DNA of 64,000 nucleotides from positions 2,820,501 to 2,884,500 of the forward strand of contig NZ_CP010978.1 in the NCBI RefSeq assembly GCF_000271665.2. The letters run 5' to 3'. Made by a program: the position numbers and the translations under genes. Positions within the stretch are counted from its first letter, which is position 1. Every line of letters starts with the position of its first letter. Below the pieces are notes generated by a model, which saw only the letters and a program-made list of their open reading frames with translations, did no database searches and had not been told where the DNA came from. The DNA is from Pelosinus fermentans JBW45. Its GTDB lineage: Bacteria; Bacillota; Negativicutes; DSM-13327. This document shows, piece after piece, positions 17,338 to 45,386 of this stretch.

Positions 17338-18156
17338 TCAGATTCCATTGCTTTCAAGAAAATCACGAAGTAAATTCATACAAACAGCTTTTCTGTATTC
17401 TGCCGAAATTCTACCTTTAATAGGAATAATTGCCTGATCATACGCTGCTATATACTCTTTCTTAACAACCTTGGCCTCTTTCGTCGTTTTACCGACTAAC
17501 ATTGCATCAATATCTGGCCGTCTGATGATAATATCGCTGACTGCGCCAAATGCAGTCATACAGTTCACAATCTTACCATCCGCGACATTCAAAATGGCAG
17601 CAAAGGAGACTCGAGAAATTGCCAACGCATCTCTAGCCCCCACTTTCTTATAATAATAATTACTGAGATTGATTCGATCTATCAGAATTTCAACAAGTAG
17701 TTCATCCGACTTAAGAGCAGTCTTCTTTCTACCCAGATAGAACTCTGCAATCGGAAGAACTCGTTCCCCCCTGCTGCTGACAAGGCGTAGTTTAGCATCT
17801 GTCGCAAATAAGATCAGTGCACTGTCCCCTTTAGCTGAACCATTACAGATATTGCCGCCAATCGTAGCTAGGTTTCGGATTGCCGGTGCCGCAATCTGCG
17901 CTGCTGCTTCCTTTAAAATCTCCGGTACCAACTCATTTTCAATAATCTCAGTAAAAGTGCATGCAGCACCAATTCGGAGATATTCTGTATCTTCTATGAT
18001 ATTTTTCATCTCGGATATTCTAGCAAGAAACAAAAATGTCGCATGTTCCTCTGGATCAATCATCAAATCGGTACCCCCGCTGTAAGGCGTCACCGATTCT
18101 TTGGCAAGGATCTTCAATGCTTCTTTCAAAGATGTTGCCTGGTAACCATTTACCAT
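17338..18156 (-). CDS. xdhB: Xanthine dehydrogenase FAD-binding subunit
   Basis: The FAD subunit of a three-part molybdenum hydroxylase, passing electrons from the 2Fe-2S subunit to an acceptor. In 272 residues it shows the FAD-binding PCMH pattern: YSGGTDLMID near residue 20, then AAQIAAPAIRNLATIGGNICNGS (residues ~83-106), and the CO-dehydrogenase flavoprotein C-terminal domain. Its start overlaps the end of xdhC by seven bases, and GGAGGGG precedes the ATG, so translation is coupled. Order A-C-B, the last of the three. Confidence 0.92.
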   Translation of the reverse strand: MVNGYQATSLKEALKILAKESVTPYSGGTDLMIDPEEHATFLFLARISEMKNIIEDTEYLRIGAACTFTEIIENELVPEILKEAAAQIAAPAIRNLATIGGNICNGSAKGDSALILFATDAKLRLVSSRGERVLPIAEFYLGRKKTALKSDELLVEILIDRINLSNYYYKKVGARDALAISRVSFAAILNVADGKIVNCMTAFGAVSDIIIRRPDIDAMLVGKTTKEAKVVKKEYIAAYDQAIIPIKGRISAEYRKAVCMNLLRDFLESNGI

Positions 18157-18620
18157 AAACCTTTCCCCTCCTTTGCTGCAATGCTAATCGCTTGTACGAT
18201 GGCATTATAACCAGTGCATCTGCAAAGGTTACCGGAAATCCCTTCACGTATCTCTGCCTCCGTCGGGTTTGGATTCTTGGCAAGGATACATTCGGACGCA
18301 AGTACCATACCCGGCGTACAAAAACCGCACTGTACTGCACTAACCGAGGCATATGACGTATCAAGAACTGCAAAACGCTCTGTTTTACGATAACCTTCAA
18401 TGGTCATAACCGTACAGCTTTCAACATACCCCATCGCCACCATACAGGAATTAACTAATTTACCATCAATAATGACAGAACAGGCACCGCATTCCCCTTC
18501 CTTGCAGCCACACTTTACTCCAGTGCAAGCAAATTCAGTGCGAAGTATATCGAGCAGACGCTCATTTGCTTTAGCAGTTGACACAACCTTTTGACCATTA
18601 AGAATAAAGTTTATCATCAT
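18150..18620 (-). CDS. xdhC: Xanthine dehydrogenase 2Fe-2S subunit
   Basis: A 156-residue two-cluster ferredoxin-like subunit. The plant-type cluster motif GCKEGECGACSV with a distal Cys and the second cluster motif QCGFCTPGM ... CRCTGYN are both complete, so both [2Fe-2S] centres should form. The start overlaps the xdhA stop by four bases (ATGA type). It links the molybdenum subunit XdhA with the flavin subunit XdhB. Confidence 0.93.
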   Translation of the reverse strand: MMINFILNGQKVVSTAKANERLLDILRTEFACTGVKCGCKEGECGACSVIIDGKLVNSCMVAMGYVESCTVMTIEGYRKTERFAVLDTSYASVSAVQCGFCTPGMVLASECILAKNPNPTEAEIREGISGNLCRCTGYNAIVQAISIAAKEGKGLW

Positions 18621-20731
18621 GTATTCACCCCCTGTAAAATTTTCATAACATCTTCCGGTGTGAATGGCACCTTATTTAAATTAGCACCAAGAGCATTTTC
18701 CATCGCTTCCACATAAGCAGGAGCCGCACCAACCAGAGGAAGTTCACCTGCCCCTTTGGCTCCATAGGGACCATGGGTATATGGATTGTTCATAATTTCA
18801 GCCACAAGATTTGGCACATCTACCGCTGTAGGAATGATATAATCGCTAAAGCTATTATTACGAATAATACCTTTAGCGTTATAATCCATTTGCTCCATGG
18901 AAGCATAACCAATTCCTTGCAGAAAACCGCCTTCCATCTGCCCCATGACAATATTCATATCAATGGGTACACCCACATCAAAAATACCCCATGCCCCAAG
19001 GATTTTTGTCGTGGCGGTCAGTGTGTCTACCTCCACTTCAATCGCATTGACCGACCAGGAATAAGTTGGATAGGCGTCGCCACTAAAGTCCTTAAGGTTA
19101 AAAGGAATTACAAAATCAGGTTCAACAAAATGCTCCTCTATCACTTGCTCTTTTCCTTCCTGCCATTCTTTCTTAAGTTTCTCTGCTGCACGCTGCAGCA
19201 ATCCTCCAACGGTCATTAAAGAACGGCTGGCTACAGTAGGACCTGAATCAGGCACACGATCTGTATCCGGATTATCAATATATACCCGATCATAAGAAAT
19301 ACCAAGGGTGTCCGCAACGATTTTACAAAACGTAGTTTTAAGCCCTTGACCAATATCCGCGTTGCTAGCGAGAATCTCTACTGTATTATCTGGATTTTTC
19401 CTAATCTTGGCCACGGCCTTAATAATGTCACGTTCGCCGCTGCCGGTAAAACCACAACCATGAAAGAACATCGATAGACCGATGCCTTTTCGGTACCGTC
19501 CAATCTGCTGCTGATATTGCTTACGCTTAGCACGATAATCAGTCAACTCATCAATCCGCTGAATCATCTCAGGCAGTGGCACATGGAAATGATATTTGCC
19601 GCTTGTGGAAGTAGAATCGCCTTGTTTAACCATATATTTTTCTTTCAGCTCCAAAGAATCCAGACCCATTTCCTTGGCGATATGATCCATAATCATTTCT
19701 ACGGCAAAGAAGGTCTGTGGCGCACCAAAACCGCGGTAGGCGCCGCAAGGTACCGTATTTGTCTTAACCGCACGCCCGCCAACGCGAAGATTATCGATGC
19801 GGTATACACCATTTGCACAAATCAAGCCACGCTGCAAAACAACTGCTGAAAGTGTAGTATAGGCACCGCTATTAAAGAGAACATCAATATCCATACCTGT
19901 AATTTCACCATTTTTAATTGCTACTTTATAGGTACTAAGGGATGGATGGCGTTTCGAAGTAAACTCCATATCTTCCCGTCGGTCAAAAATGACCTTAACT
20001 GGCTTATTTGCCTTTTTTGCTGCAACTGCGACCTGACAAGCGAGTATGGAAGGGAAGGCTTCCTTGCCGCCAAAGCCGCCGCCAGTAACATCTTGGATAA
20101 TCTGAACGTCTTTTCCCTCACAGCCGATCGCGTTGGCAACTGCACTATGCACATAGTATGGACACTGCATCGAACCACGTACCGTCATGCGACCATCCTG
20201 AGGATAGGCAATAAGCCCCTGTGTTTCCAGATAAGCCTGTTCCTGATAACCTGTCTGAAAAGTCTCGATAAAAACACGATCCGCTTCCGCTAAGGCCTTA
20301 TCCATATCTCCTTTTGTATAATTGTAATCAAAGAAAACTGTATCTGATGTCAGCATATCAAGAACTGGGATTTTCTCTTCATACACTACCACAATCTTAT
20401 GCAAAATTGTCTCAACGACTTGATCATCCGGGCCAACAACCATTAAAATTGGCTCACCTACATATTCTACCGTATCCTCGGCATAAACAGGCGTGTCATG
20501 AATTATAATTGCAACACGATTTACACCTGTTACGTCGTTTTTATCCACAATCAAATAACCCTCAGGCAATTCAGGAAGAATAATCTTGGTAATACGTGCT
20601 TTTGCCTTGGCAGAATGTAACATTCTGCCATAAAGCATGCCGTCCATCAGATGATCATCTACATAAAGAGCACTACCGTTTATTTTGGCTTCATGGTCTT
20701 TCTTCTTTATTGATCCGCTAATATTTTCCAT
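18617..20731 (-). CDS. xdhA: Xanthine dehydrogenase molybdenum-binding subunit
   Basis: The catalytic subunit, 704 residues, of the xanthine oxidase family. Cofactor-binding motifs GGGFGGKEA and CGAYRGFGAPQ are present, and the catalytic glutamate lies in GAKGAGELP near the C-terminus. It hydroxylates hypoxanthine/xanthine-type purines (or related N-heterocycles) using water. GTGGGAGGAG precedes the ATG. It forms an overlapping trio with xdhC and xdhB. Substrate could be purine, xanthine or nicotinate-like; the neighbouring permease and guaD favour purines. Confidence 0.92.
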   Translation of the reverse strand: MENISGSIKKKDHEAKINGSALYVDDHLMDGMLYGRMLHSAKAKARITKIILPELPEGYLIVDKNDVTGVNRVAIIIHDTPVYAEDTVEYVGEPILMVVGPDDQVVETILHKIVVVYEEKIPVLDMLTSDTVFFDYNYTKGDMDKALAEADRVFIETFQTGYQEQAYLETQGLIAYPQDGRMTVRGSMQCPYYVHSAVANAIGCEGKDVQIIQDVTGGGFGGKEAFPSILACQVAVAAKKANKPVKVIFDRREDMEFTSKRHPSLSTYKVAIKNGEITGMDIDVLFNSGAYTTLSAVVLQRGLICANGVYRIDNLRVGGRAVKTNTVPCGAYRGFGAPQTFFAVEMIMDHIAKEMGLDSLELKEKYMVKQGDSTSTSGKYHFHVPLPEMIQRIDELTDYRAKRKQYQQQIGRYRKGIGLSMFFHGCGFTGSGERDIIKAVAKIRKNPDNTVEILASNADIGQGLKTTFCKIVADTLGISYDRVYIDNPDTDRVPDSGPTVASRSLMTVGGLLQRAAEKLKKEWQEGKEQVIEEHFVEPDFVIPFNLKDFSGDAYPTYSWSVNAIEVEVDTLTATTKILGAWGIFDVGVPIDMNIVMGQMEGGFLQGIGYASMEQMDYNAKGIIRNNSFSDYIIPTAVDVPNLVAEIMNNPYTHGPYGAKGAGELPLVGAAPAYVEAMENALGANLNKVPFTPEDVMKILQGVNT

Positions 20732-20775: not shown

Positions 20776-20802
20776 GCCAAAACCATAAATTATAGTTTTG
20801 GC
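20776..20802 (-). terminator. Terminator upstream of xdhA
   Basis: GCCAAAAC (20776-20783) and GTTTTGGC (20795-20802) form a perfect 8-bp stem. On the minus strand it is followed by ATTTTTG. It lies just past the mobA-like remnant and probably ended that gene's transcript, separating xdhD from xdhACB. Confidence 0.65.
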
Positions 20803-20813
20803 TGACAAATGAA

Positions 20814-21155
20814 TCAAGATAAAATCAAACTCTCCATATAATCTGAAAGCCGATTGTAATCTTCCTGGGTATCTGCATCTAACATGCAGCCCATATCCTC
20901 AACAGGAACGGTTACAATTTGGCTTTCCAGCTGGTGCCATACTTCTCGCAGACCGCCCTCGCCAGTAAAAGCAAGGATATGTTTTATACATTTGCACGAA
21001 ATCAAAGGCGGGTGTTTTCGGTATCCGTCAATTCATCATTTTTCCTTTTATTTTTAAAAGAGGTTTAAACGCTTTCATACGGCTGGATAAACCAGCAGCC
21101 AATAGAACACCATTGGTTCCAATGAAATATCACCTTCTCCAGTCCGAACATCACT
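20814..21155 (-). pseudogene. Broken MobA/MocA-like molybdenum-cofactor nucleotidyltransferase
   Basis: Two disjoint pieces of one NTP-transferase gene are readable. An N-terminal piece (about 21111 to 21028) has the nucleotide-binding signature GVLLAAGLSSRMKAFKPLL, then a stop at 21028-21030. A C-terminal piece (about 21023 to 20814), in another frame, has HPPLIS, then GEGGLREVWHQL, then EDMGCMLDADTQEDYNRL, the typical tail of this family. Roughly 100 central residues are missing, and the N-terminal frame also lacks an in-frame start (a stop lies shortly upstream). The family normally makes molybdenum-cofactor dinucleotide (MCD) for hydroxylases. Position between xdhD and xdhA fits that original role. 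Confidence 0.85.
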
Positions 21156-21185: not shown

Positions 21186-23741
21186 TTACTTTTTATAAAA
21201 GGTGTCTTGTAACGGCAGTTGCGTACGGAATTTGCCGTCTAGCCGATAATAAGCATGAGAACAAGCTGGAGCCGTCGGAATCAAACATAATTCTCCACAG
21301 CCTTTTGCTCCATACGTTTCAGGAATCTTGCCCTTCCCCTGCACCAGAATCGTTTCCAATTCAGGAGCTTCCGTTGCTCTCATAAGTCCTAAAGTGCCAA
21401 GTTTAGTCTTTGGATAACCACATTCCACTTTAAACTCTTCCGTCATCGCATAGCCCAATCCCATGATGATGCCGCCTTCAATCTGACCTTCAACAGCTTG
21501 GATATTAACAGGTGTCCCCACATCATAGGCTGCCACTACTTTTTCAACTTTCCCCTCTTTATTCAGAATAACAACCTGCGCTCCATAACTATAACTGACA
21601 TGACTGATGGGATTATCTTTAATAGCTCCCATTGGATCCGTCTTGACAGAATACTCTCCAGAAAATTCCCGACCTTCCAAATCTGCCAATGTTAATCCTT
21701 TATCCATTTCTGCTTTCAATTTCTCAGACCCTCGTCTAACCGCTTCACCAGTTACTACCGTTTGCCGCGAAGCCGTACTTGTTCCCGAATTAGGTGTACG
21801 TATCGTATCGGCTCTTTCGTGTACGATGCAGGAAGGATCTAAGCCCGTTGTCTCGCACAACACCGTCACACACATGGTTCCAATCCCCTGCCCCATACAA
21901 GCTGCCGAAGTTCGAATGTGAACCTTGCCTTGATCAATGGATAAAATACAACGGCCAATGTCCTTCTTGCCCACACCCGTGCCGCTATTTTTAAATGCTA
22001 TAGCAATCCCTGCATATGGGTTAGATTCATATACATCCTTAACTGCTTCTAAACATTCTGCCATGGCGACACTTTCATCGGCAATCTGTCCATTAGGCAG
22101 CACCTGTCCGGGCCTTATTGCATTGCGGTAACGTATTTCCCATGGGGAAATACCCGCCATTTCTGCCAGTAAGTTAATATTATTTTCCGTAGCAAAGCAG
22201 CTTTGTGTTACACCAAAACCTCGAAATGCTCCAGCAACCACATTATTGGTATAAACAGACATGCCAAAAATGTCAATATTCTGATAATTATAAGGGCCAG
22301 CAGCATGAGTACAGGCGCGATGCAATACAGGTCCTCCCAGGGATGCATAGGCACCTGTATCCGCAATAATAACCGCTTTCATACCTGTTAAATAACCATA
22401 TTCATCACAAGCTGTCGTAAATTCCATTTCCATGGCATGACGCTTAACATGATAGTCCAGACTTTCCTGCCGTGAAAATTTTACTTTGACTGGCTTTTTC
22501 GTATGCCATGCCATTAATGCGGCAAGATGTTGAACGCTCATATCTTCCTTACCGCCAAATCCTCCTCCCACCAATTGCGTCTGACAATGTACTTTTTCCA
22601 GGGGGATCTGAAGCATCAATGCAATTTCACGCTGTTCATCATACACAGACTGGGCACCAGAATATAAGAAAATGCCGTCTTCTCCTTCTGGCATAGCAAT
22701 GGCACATTCCGGTTCCATGAAACCATGTTCCTGAAATGGTGTTTTATATTTTCTAGTTACGACATATTTAGAATTTTTAATGGCTTCATCCGCATTACCT
22801 CGTTGAAGACTCGCACGACTCATAACATTTCCATCCGCATGGATTAAAGGAGCATCTGCCTTTAATCCATCGGTAGGACAGGTAATCGGTGTTAACTCTG
22901 TGTAATCAACTTCCACCAATTTACAGACTTCATCCAATTTATCTTTATCATAGGTTGCTACCAATGCCAATGAATCCCCTACATATCTAGTTGTTTGACC
23001 CTCAGCAATCATTACGTCCCAATCTTGCTTGGCATGACCGATCACATTATGGGGAACATCCTTCGCCAGTAAAATTTTCACGCAGTCTGGATGCGCTTCT
23101 GCTTTACTAATATCTATTTTGTTGACAACCGCTCTTGGATATCGGGACCGAACTGTTTTTGCATAAATCATTCCGGGTAACTTAAGATCATCGACAAAAA
23201 TACCAGTTCCATTTACTTTTTCTGCTACATCGATACGTTTGAATCTCTGGGCCACCTTTAATTCATTTGAAGAAATGGGAATGGACAGCTCATTCCTGAA
23301 ATATGCCGCTGCCAACAAAATGGCTTCTTCTATTTTTTTATAACCGGTACAACGGCAAAGGTTTCCTCTGATTGCTTTCTTTACCTCTGAAATCGTTGGA
23401 TTCAGGTTAACGTCCAATAATGCCTTTGCAGAAATAATCATACCTGGAATACAAAAACCGCATTGAACTGCACCTGCTTCACCAAAAGAATGTTCATAAA
23501 CAGTCCTTTCCCGCTCGCTTAATCCTTCTACTGTTAAAATTTGTTTGCCTACAAATTTTGAAACTTTTTGCACACAGGCTTTCACTGCTTTTCTATCCAC
23601 TAATACAGTACATGTTCCACAGGCGCCTTCACTGCAGCCGTCTTTTGCAGAAGTAATTTGCAAATCATCTCTTAAAAAAGCCAATAAAGGTTTGTCAAAT
23701 TGAGAAACTACCTCTTTACCATTGATATGCAAGGTAAACAT
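21186..23741 (-). CDS. xdhD: Selenium-dependent-type xanthine dehydrogenase, fused FeS and Mo domains
   Basis: An 851-residue molybdenum hydroxylase with the 2Fe-2S and molybdenum domains in one chain and no FAD domain. Cluster I cysteines are Cys36, 41, 44, 56; cluster II cysteines are Cys94, 97, 129, 131. The Mo part shows GGGFGGKED, GAFRGFGVTQ and the catalytic glutamate in GAKGCGELC. This layout matches the selenium-dependent xanthine dehydrogenase/XdhD group, where selenium is a labile cofactor, not selenocysteine. Without FAD it must hand electrons to a partner, plausibly YgfK or a ferredoxin. AGGAGG precedes the ATG. Confidence 0.9.
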   Translation of the reverse strand: MFTLHINGKEVVSQFDKPLLAFLRDDLQITSAKDGCSEGACGTCTVLVDRKAVKACVQKVSKFVGKQILTVEGLSERERTVYEHSFGEAGAVQCGFCIPGMIISAKALLDVNLNPTISEVKKAIRGNLCRCTGYKKIEEAILLAAAYFRNELSIPISSNELKVAQRFKRIDVAEKVNGTGIFVDDLKLPGMIYAKTVRSRYPRAVVNKIDISKAEAHPDCVKILLAKDVPHNVIGHAKQDWDVMIAEGQTTRYVGDSLALVATYDKDKLDEVCKLVEVDYTELTPITCPTDGLKADAPLIHADGNVMSRASLQRGNADEAIKNSKYVVTRKYKTPFQEHGFMEPECAIAMPEGEDGIFLYSGAQSVYDEQREIALMLQIPLEKVHCQTQLVGGGFGGKEDMSVQHLAALMAWHTKKPVKVKFSRQESLDYHVKRHAMEMEFTTACDEYGYLTGMKAVIIADTGAYASLGGPVLHRACTHAAGPYNYQNIDIFGMSVYTNNVVAGAFRGFGVTQSCFATENNINLLAEMAGISPWEIRYRNAIRPGQVLPNGQIADESVAMAECLEAVKDVYESNPYAGIAIAFKNSGTGVGKKDIGRCILSIDQGKVHIRTSAACMGQGIGTMCVTVLCETTGLDPSCIVHERADTIRTPNSGTSTASRQTVVTGEAVRRGSEKLKAEMDKGLTLADLEGREFSGEYSVKTDPMGAIKDNPISHVSYSYGAQVVILNKEGKVEKVVAAYDVGTPVNIQAVEGQIEGGIIMGLGYAMTEEFKVECGYPKTKLGTLGLMRATEAPELETILVQGKGKIPETYGAKGCGELCLIPTAPACSHAYYRLDGKFRTQLPLQDTFYKK

Positions 23742-23789
23742 AAATAACCTCCTATTCTATAACAATTCAACGATTTTTCCGTTAAAATT

Positions 23790-23818
23790 ATTATAAAATG
23801 GAAGTTATTTTCCATCAA
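23790..23818 (-). promoter_or_regulatory. Sigma-A-type promoter of xdhD
   Basis: On the minus strand, TTGATG (23813-23818) and TATAAT (23790-23795) are separated by 17 bases, close to consensus. The inverted repeat at 23798-23815 fills the spacer. Confidence 0.6.
23798..23815. promoter_or_regulatory. Inverted repeat inside the xdhD promoter
   Basis: ATGGAA-N6-TTCCAT is a perfect dyad lying between the -35 and -10 elements, the classic place for a repressor. The adjacent ModE-like regulator is a natural candidate, but the sequence is not the E. coli ModE consensus. Confidence 0.5.
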
Positions 23819-23860
23819 ATTCTTTGTCAAAAGAACTTGCTTCCTATTTAGTTCCAACTG

Positions 23861-24823
23861 CTAGAATAATCGGTCAAATTCATTTTTTGCATATTGGCGT
23901 ACATTGTGTTCAAATTCCTGATATTTTTCCAAAAAATCAATACCCTCTTTAGTCAAATATGTTTTTCCGCCCTTGCTGCCGCCATGTTTTCTTTCCACCA
24001 CTGCATACCCTAACTCTTGTTCTAATTCATTTAGCATGTTCCATGCTTTACTATAAGACAAGGCAATATGTCTGCAAGCACTCCGTACCGAGTGGGTATC
24101 CTGAATCAAAATCAAGAGCAGCTTTGTTCTTGAATTAAAAAACAGAGATTCTTTTTCAATACTAATTCTAACAAAAGGATGTAGAATCTGATGATTATGT
24201 TTTTTTAAAAGTTGATCTAATCGACCAATAGCATCCGTATCATGGAGGATACCCTCATCTTCTATCGCTATCCATTTCCTTTCCACTCCGATATTTTCAA
24301 TGGCTCCCCGCATTCCCATATTCCCCTCATACGTTAGAATCCTAGGAATCAATTCGGAAGATACCAAAAGGGGATGACCAGCTTTTCCATGATAAGATGG
24401 AGATATTAACTTTTCACCACATTCCATCATTCTTTGAATCGTATCGGGTGTAAATAGTGAAATATTTACTGGATTGAAGATTACCTGATCACATTTATTC
24501 TGTAAAAACTCAAGTCCGATTTTTGCAGAATCAAACATCTGTGAATTTTCATACTGTAAATTTCGCAAAAATATGACCCCATAATCTGCTAAATCATGTT
24601 CAATTTCTTCAGCTCGATGCCCCGTAATGACCACAATAGGCGAAATTCCAACTTGCTGAAAGGTTAAAACAATTCTTTTTACTATTGTAATAGAGCCAAT
24701 CTTCAATAGCGGATCTAGTTCGTTTCTTACTGACGCCTTTCCTGCTGCAACAATTAAGCCACCCGTTATTTTTTTTTCCTTTTGTTCATACTCAAACGAC
24801 TTACTCTGTCTAGGTAGTGTCAA
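23861..24823 (-). CDS. Fusion of MobA-like NTP-transferase domain with ModE-like DNA-binding domain
   Basis: Two domains in one chain of about 320 residues. The first ~210 resemble MobA/MocA nucleotidyltransferases: GGLIVAAGKASVRNELDPLL takes the place of the LAAG-x-SSRMG-x-K loop, then VVITGHRAEEIE, HGKAGHPLLVS, and EDEGILHDTDAIGRLDQLL. Residues ~220-320 form a LysR/ModE-type winged helix (FNSRTKLLLILIQDTHSVRSA ... GGSKGGKTYLTKEG). The start is taken as TTG 24823, eight bases after GGAGG; a GTG at 24832 abuts the ribosome site. It probably senses nucleotide or molybdenum-cofactor status and controls the xdh genes. The degenerate loop makes catalysis doubtful. Confidence 0.82.
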   Translation of the reverse strand: MTLPRQSKSFEYEQKEKKITGGLIVAAGKASVRNELDPLLKIGSITIVKRIVLTFQQVGISPIVVITGHRAEEIEHDLADYGVIFLRNLQYENSQMFDSAKIGLEFLQNKCDQVIFNPVNISLFTPDTIQRMMECGEKLISPSYHGKAGHPLLVSSELIPRILTYEGNMGMRGAIENIGVERKWIAIEDEGILHDTDAIGRLDQLLKKHNHQILHPFVRISIEKESLFFNSRTKLLLILIQDTHSVRSACRHIALSYSKAWNMLNELEQELGYAVVERKHGGSKGGKTYLTKEGIDFLEKYQEFEHNVRQYAKNEFDRLF

Positions 24824-24832
24824 ATTTGACAC
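24817..24832. promoter_or_regulatory. 16-bp perfect palindrome over the regulator's start codon
   Basis: GTGTCAAATTTGACAC is its own reverse complement and covers the start codon and the space between it and GGAGG. It could be an autoregulatory operator or an RNA hairpin that limits translation. Confidence 0.6.
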
Positions 24833-45131: not shown

Positions 45132-45386
45132 TAAAAAAACTCCGCCCTGTTCAGGACGAAGTTTCACCTTCGTTATACCACCTTTTAACAATTCATTCAG
45201 GCACTACCATACCCTATCCTTTAACGCAGGATTACGAATTGACTTACTAGAAGGTTCAGTCATCAGCTCTCAGGTGATTTTCTTCCGATTATCCTGGCAG
45301 GTTCTCAGCACTCCCTACTCACTGTACATTCAAAATCATGAATACTCTTCCTGATCATAGCTTTTTAGATATCTCTATTAAAATCT
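45132..45386 (-). ncRNA. T-box riboswitch, isoleucine specific
   Basis: The leader between the sigma-A promoter and ileS has the T-box core (GGTGGTATAACG, 45171-45182), followed by a perfect intrinsic terminator (arms 45139-45162) with a seven-base U-run. Stem I carries the conserved AGTA and GGAAGAAAATCACC region; the AUC at 45276-45278 is the likely isoleucine codon. Uncharged tRNA-Ile would stabilise the antiterminator and allow ileS transcription. Confidence 0.9.

Follow-up and report, generated by a model that had tools for sequence, protein, structure and literature searches.

The synthesis of molybdoenzymes must match the cofactor supply in cells, and molybdate is sensed by ModE. The cofactor enzyme MocA (TIGR03310) is the CTP:molybdopterin cytidylyltransferase. 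In BirA and similar enzyme-regulators, as is generally known, a cofactor enzyme is joined to a winged helix. For the molybdenum cofactor the proposed sensor is an RNA, the Moco riboswitch (PMC2408646), and a recent study found regulation by cofactor level at torCAD of E. coli (PMC10845959). A MocA (EF2569) and a ModE-type protein (EF2572) of Enterococcus faecalis belong to one selenium/molybdenum hydroxylase cluster (PMC2432076).

The window, by which we mean the whole stretch of 64,000 nucleotides of Pelosinus fermentans JBW45 DNA that was analysed, joins in a single chain, the enzyme part of which is dead, what E. faecalis encodes by separate genes.

23861..24823, minus strand: fusion gene encoding 320 aa, a MocA-type nucleotidyltransferase domain in degenerate form with a C-terminal ModE-type winged helix
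24188..24769, minus strand: putative pseudo-MocA domain, residues ~19-212, with V32, D37 and N120 at the catalytic Arg, Lys and Asp positions
23861..24187, minus strand: ModE-type winged-helix domain, residues ~213-320

Judged by its sequence, the fusion is neither a MocA nor a ModE. It shares fold, sequence kinship over ~190 residues and a similar operon with MocA and with the DVU_1551-type NTP transferase (NF045665), but the catalytic Arg, Lys and Asp are gone, and it has a C-terminal winged helix where those proteins have nothing or a further C-terminal domain. With ModE (TIGR00637; 1b9m, 2ijl) it shares the winged helix, including SYSKAWN and GG..GG motifs, and a place in molybdenum metabolism; however, its DNA-binding domain is C-terminal, there is no molybdate-binding domain and the candidate operator is unlike the ModE box. 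As a system it would be a one-component regulator whose sensor is new, a MocA fold being combined with a ModE DNA-binding domain. The cofactor feedback on molybdenum genes that we propose resembles that of the Moco riboswitch, where the sensor is RNA, and compared with BirA, which is active, the core fusion clade appears catalytically dead.

The fusion gene is present as a single copy in its genome and starts with a TTG located 8 nt after GGAGG, giving the 320-aa protein; an alternative in-frame GTG at 24832 would give 323 aa. Using hmmscan, the N-terminal part matched Pfam NTP_transf_3 (E 4e-18) and TIGR03310 MocA (E 2e-23, model positions 2-181 of 188, under the curated cut-off), and the C-terminal part matched TIGR00637 ModE_repress (E 5e-16, also under the curated cut-off). 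Sequence relatives in the PDB include the MocA-like Sulfolobus protein 3d5n for the N-terminal half, while profile matches for the C-terminal half were to ModE only (2ijl, 1b9m, 1o7l). An AlphaFold model built with 28 relatives as input contains both domains (mean pLDDT 86, pTM 0.84). Structural alignment of its first domain to nucleotidyltransferases gave Z scores of about 20-23, among them 3d5n (Z 21.8, 2.0 A, 168 residues) and Rv0371c (Z 21.5, 2.5 A, 185 residues). Because VIA-align of the full model returned the nucleotidyltransferase half only, the DNA-binding half was modelled alone (pLDDT 85), and its top Foldseek match was E. coli ModE (1b9m). No Pfam match to a molybdate-binding domain was found anywhere in the 320 aa.

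The fusion of a MocA/MobA nucleotidyltransferase fold with a ModE-type winged helix is thereby confirmed as real, as the preliminary description had proposed, the domain searches of the two halves and the AlphaFold model being in agreement. Of the 'ModE/LysR-like' DNA-binding domain in that description only the ModE part stands. A LysR-type regulator was rejected on domain order and structure: the helix-turn-helix is C-terminal, the Pfam HTH_1 (LysR) match lies slightly under cut-off, there is no match to an effector domain and the nearest structure is ModE.

Scanning some 85,000 species genomes, we identified 31 loci with relatives, 28 of them full-length fusions. Identity is 67-83% for those of Clostridium, Sporomusa, Anaerospora and Desulfosporosinus, whereas remoter Bacillota and one metagenome-assembled genome (MAG) labelled Spirochaetes show 28-53%; several of the relatives come from MAGs. 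Among 398 sampled genomes of the phylum the full fusion is present in about 8, separate MocA-like and ModE-type domains are common, and the two are adjoining separate genes in two genomes (G330 and G284). The architecture together with its residue losses is common to 31 other fusions and is therefore more than a chance joining. Our literature search, which was not exhaustive, found no description of a MocA-ModE fusion. A 'Neobacillus' MAG contig (L011) encoding a protein ~98% identical to that of the window probably represents DNA of the window's genus that was binned wrongly.

To compare the catalytic residues we aligned 97 domains, 60 from stand-alone MocA-like proteins and 37 from fusions. 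The stand-alone proteins keep the three residues (SSRM Arg, FK-motif Lys and GDxP Asp) without exception (60/60), whereas at least one is missing in 32 of the 37 fusions (none kept in 23, one in 6, two in 3 and all three in 5). The window protein keeps 0/3, with V32 for the Arg, Asp37 for the Lys and Asn120 for the Asp of GDxP. Its loop reads VAAGKASVRNELD-PLLK, altered from LAAG-x-SSRMG just as first quoted; the 'LL-K' that was described as kept does not include the catalytic lysine, whose position is Asp37. The loop is shortened in the fusions of L006 and L023. On a quick tree from which the catalytic columns were left out, the 32 degenerate fusions and that of L027 fall on one side of a branch with 99% support, and the fusions with intact residues from L041-L043 and L044 fall elsewhere. 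L027, which is intact, and L029, which has lost the loop and kept Lys and Asp, are sisters on this tree, suggesting that catalytic loss was repeated or stepwise.

Seven pairs compared over the dead domain gave dN/dS values of 0.09-0.18, ruling out a decaying pseudogene; with dN/dS about 0.1, purifying selection on the domain is strong. All of the degenerate-fusion genomes covered by our MocA search (23/23) contain a further MocA-family match besides the fusion, often two genes 3' of it and with all three catalytic residues retained. The loss of residues, the purifying selection and the separate MocA together make the fusion's MocA domain look like a pseudoenzyme and not a decaying enzyme. The fusions with intact residues (L027, L041, L042, L043 and L044) are candidate bifunctional enzyme-regulators; most lie in maturation islands with XdhC, ModABC and radical SAM genes. 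Relatives keeping or losing catalytic residues would form a natural series that runs from an active enzyme to a protein that only regulates.

The fusion gene stands at the head of a molybdenum hydroxylase island, as had been noted from the outset, with hydroxylase and uric-acid genes downstream.

21186..23741, minus strand: xdhD, the presumed target, encoding a selenium-dependent xanthine dehydrogenase (TIGR03311 match above cut-off, 1319 bits)
20814..21119, minus strand: remnant of a stand-alone mocA, internally deleted, intact in sister genome G003
17338..20731, minus strand: second molybdenum hydroxylase with Mo, Fe-S and FAD subunits

The xdhD product has Fe-S and Mo domains in a single chain (XdhD type), and of mocA an N-terminal piece (LAAGLSSRMKAFKPLLK) and a C-terminal piece are left on either side of a large internal deletion. 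Further genes of the island include YgfK and SsnA (profile matches above cut-off) and, from inspection of ORFs, YgeW-, YgeY- and carbamate-kinase-like genes and permeases. This corresponds to the gene set of the reductive uric-acid pathway (PMC12507026), placing the enzyme under control in an island for anaerobic uric-acid degradation, a pathway that draws interest in relation to the purine balance of hosts (PMC12507026). A molybdenum hydroxylase gene, or mocA followed by a hydroxylase gene, lies directly after the fusion in about 20 of 29 informative loci. In L027, L028, L029, L031 and L034 the fusion is found among MoeA-like, ModABC, XdhC, YqeB or YqeC genes, some neighbour names being taken from sequence clustering and not from curated models. 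One neighbour in Hespellia (L028 4348-5514, minus strand) is a YqeB (TIGR03309 above cut-off) that carries a ModE-type winged helix at its N-terminus, a second fusion of a ModE-type domain with a molybdenum hydroxylase maturation factor. The window also contains a T-box leader at 45149-45367 on the minus strand (102 bits).

Our favoured reading, which we consider probable, is a one-component transcription factor in which the dead MocA sensor and the ModE-type domain on an inverted repeat, IR1, tie the hydroxylase to cofactor supply. A MocA-type cytidylyltransferase domain would have lost catalysis and become a sensor, the winged helix would bind IR1 as a dimer centred about -44.5 and overlapping the start of the -35 box, and expression of the adjoining hydroxylase would follow the supply of pterin cofactor, Mo-molybdopterin (Mo-MPT) or molybdopterin cytosine dinucleotide (MCD). 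The regulation would more probably be repression, lifted when cofactor is present, and a hairpin around the -10 box, IR2, would block translation of read-through mRNA so that xdhD is made only from the switched promoter. If true, a dead cofactor enzyme acting as a transcription factor with a single operator would make protein sensing of an unstable cofactor directly testable.

The residues conserved in the domain (N88, Y91, M96, S99, K101, G103, P142, H150, P151, G170, D189 and G191) belong to the acceptor half of the pocket. With nucleotide- and metal-binding residues lost and acceptor-side residues conserved, we infer that pterin is the ligand in preference to CTP; for Mo-MPT/MCD as the ligand we see the chances as even. 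Of the earlier suggestion that a former enzyme acts as a CTP/cofactor sensor switching xdh, the xdh regulator is supported by the lost residues, the maintained selection and an operator-promoter before xdhD, and CTP is not supported. The conserved acceptor-side residues could serve the fold or protein contacts instead of pterin. Unlikely, although the likeliest of the alternatives, is that with the same regulator and operator the dead domain senses a protein partner, such as apo-hydroxylase, XdhC, MocA or YqeB. MocA-type proteins and XdhC-type chaperones act side by side (general knowledge; PMC2997495), the fusion is in maturation operons in L027, L028, L031 and L034, and the ModE-YqeB protein of L028 would fit; yet the clustering of conserved residues in the acceptor half speaks against a partner, and no conserved partner gene is common to all loci.

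It is improbable that the ligand of the sensor is a purine substrate such as xanthine or urate, or some other small molecule, with the molybdenum link being of ancestry only. The island is a purine/uric-acid island (PMC12507026) and guanine and adenine deaminase genes flank several Clostridium loci; however, the degenerate relatives of L029 and L031 lie in molybdate-transport or MoeA-like contexts without nearby purine genes, and MocA-specific residues are retained. We give very little credence to a bifunctional or residual enzyme combining CMP transfer with regulation in the manner of BirA. Five fusions (L027, L041, L042, L043 and L044) do have all catalytic residues, the fusion is the only MocA found in the L027 MAG and the stand-alone operon mocA is broken in the window, but in the window protein V, D and N replace the catalytic Arg, Lys and Asp, and an intact DVU_1551-type NTP transferase is encoded elsewhere in its own genome. 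Returning to the cofactor-sensing regulator, its extension to a new class of protein sensors is held more tentatively, a little short of even: the MocA pseudoenzyme pocket would bind Mo-MPT/MCD and steer the ModE-type domain, the class would descend from still-active bifunctional fusions, and its operator and promoter would be nested in a hairpin that hides the ribosome site.

The gap between the fusion and xdhD is 119 bp and contains IR1, followed by a promoter near consensus, the transcription start being placed from its -10 box.

23816..23839, minus strand: IR1, candidate operator, CAAGTTCTTT-TGAC-AAAGAATTTG (CAAGTTCTTT-N4-AAAGAATTTG)
23790..23818, minus strand: xdhD promoter, TTGATG-17-TATAAT, the -35 box beginning with the last three IR1 bases (TTG)
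23742..23811, minus strand: IR2, long hairpin, left arm containing the -10 box and right arm the xdhD Shine-Dalgarno GGAGG

IR1 is the sole site with <3 mismatches in its own 5.38-Mb genome and is absent from three congeners without the fusion. Across the 398 genomes the exact sequence is found only in the window's own genome and a one-mismatch site in two others. With the exception of L020, every core-clade locus has IR1 directly after the fusion, and so do L033 (a near-perfect palindrome), L026 (a symmetric change in both halves) and L077. Its spacing to the -10 box is fixed in 27/27 sites (17 bp in 25 and 18 bp in 2), and the -10 box is TATAAT in 25/27. The sequence of IR1 is conserved with no two-sided changes among its variants, as expected of a protein site. 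There is no IR1 beside the fusion in L032, L034 or L039 or in fusions with intact active sites, and the L040 genome has IR1 only as a distant variant.

Most IR1 sites adjoin the fusion gene, and their conservation is partly explained by common inheritance of the entire unit. Three loci argue against mere co-inheritance. Clostridium sp. CMCC3677 (L013) has the fusion before xdhD on one contig and, on another, a second IR1-promoter ~80 bp before a complete xdhA-FeS-FAD operon. C. cuniculi has its fusion (L020) with neither a hydroxylase neighbour nor an adjoining IR1, and an exact IR1 with -35/-10 boxes and a hairpin away from it (L127 7320-9333), before an HGD-D/BadF pair that is a possible new target of the regulator. 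In Hespellia (L028), IR1 is upstream of the fusion and divergent toward YqeB/XdhC/ModAB genes. Regulation of the hydroxylase promoter by the fusion protein is very likely, and binding to IR1 would be its means; that IR1 is another transcription factor's site or a mere promoter feature, with the fusion acting elsewhere, is highly improbable, for although the geometry fits any factor binding next to the xdhD promoter, IR1 tracks the fusion across 24 genomes, is missing in the congeners without it and is kept with symmetric variation in the divergent members L033 and L026.

For the sign of regulation by the fusion we lean modestly toward repression relieved by cofactor over activation, given that a near-consensus promoter would need little help and that IR1 overlaps the -35 box. 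The position at -44.5 fits a class-II activator as well as a repressor.

Two other candidate operators were considered. The canonical ModE box ATCGnTATATA-N6-TATATAnCGAT was not found in the window at up to 3 mismatches. The palindrome GTGTCAAATTTGACAC at the fusion's start codon (24817-24832), initially put forward as an operator, was rejected: about 4 of some 28 relatives keep it (partly in C. uliginosum, C. frigoris and Clostridium sp. DSM 17811, weakly in C. psychrophilum), and perfect 16-nt palindromes number 4 in the window against 1.25 expected.

Folding of the read-through RNA across IR2 is much stronger than in shuffled sequences (z -6.25), with 0/200 shuffles as good, and the xdhD ribosome-binding site is wholly or nearly paired in 20/20 read-through sequences. 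It is mostly free in transcripts initiated at the promoter, exceptions including L007. We identified 14 pairs with two-sided change in IR2; the covariation score of 0.218 compares with 0.169 in shuffles, which ignore relatedness (0/500 as high), and sliding the partners by one column roughly halves it. The likely role of IR2 would be to insulate xdhD against transcription running through from the regulator gene. A known riboswitch at IR2, including the Moco riboswitch, was rejected: Rfam gave no match at gathering score around xdhD and IR2 and chance-level matches only at E up to 10.

Related arrangements were seen at other sites. Genome G377, which carries a degenerate fusion, has a perfect palindrome CAAGTTGTTT-TTCA-AAACAACTTG (L128 1216-1239) upstream of a DUF4213/DUF364 'heavy-metal chelation' gene. 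The C. cuniculi HGD-D (2-hydroxyglutaryl-CoA dehydratase D-like) and BadF-type activator genes adjoin genes that look like hydrogenase-maturation genes. Unrelated genes of C. cuniculi (L127 7320) and of C. nigeriense (L135) have similar layouts with the -10 box inside a hairpin, and in the window itself TTGATT-17-TATAAT, without IR1 and with its -10 box inside a hairpin, precedes the second hydroxylase gene (20776-20817, minus strand).
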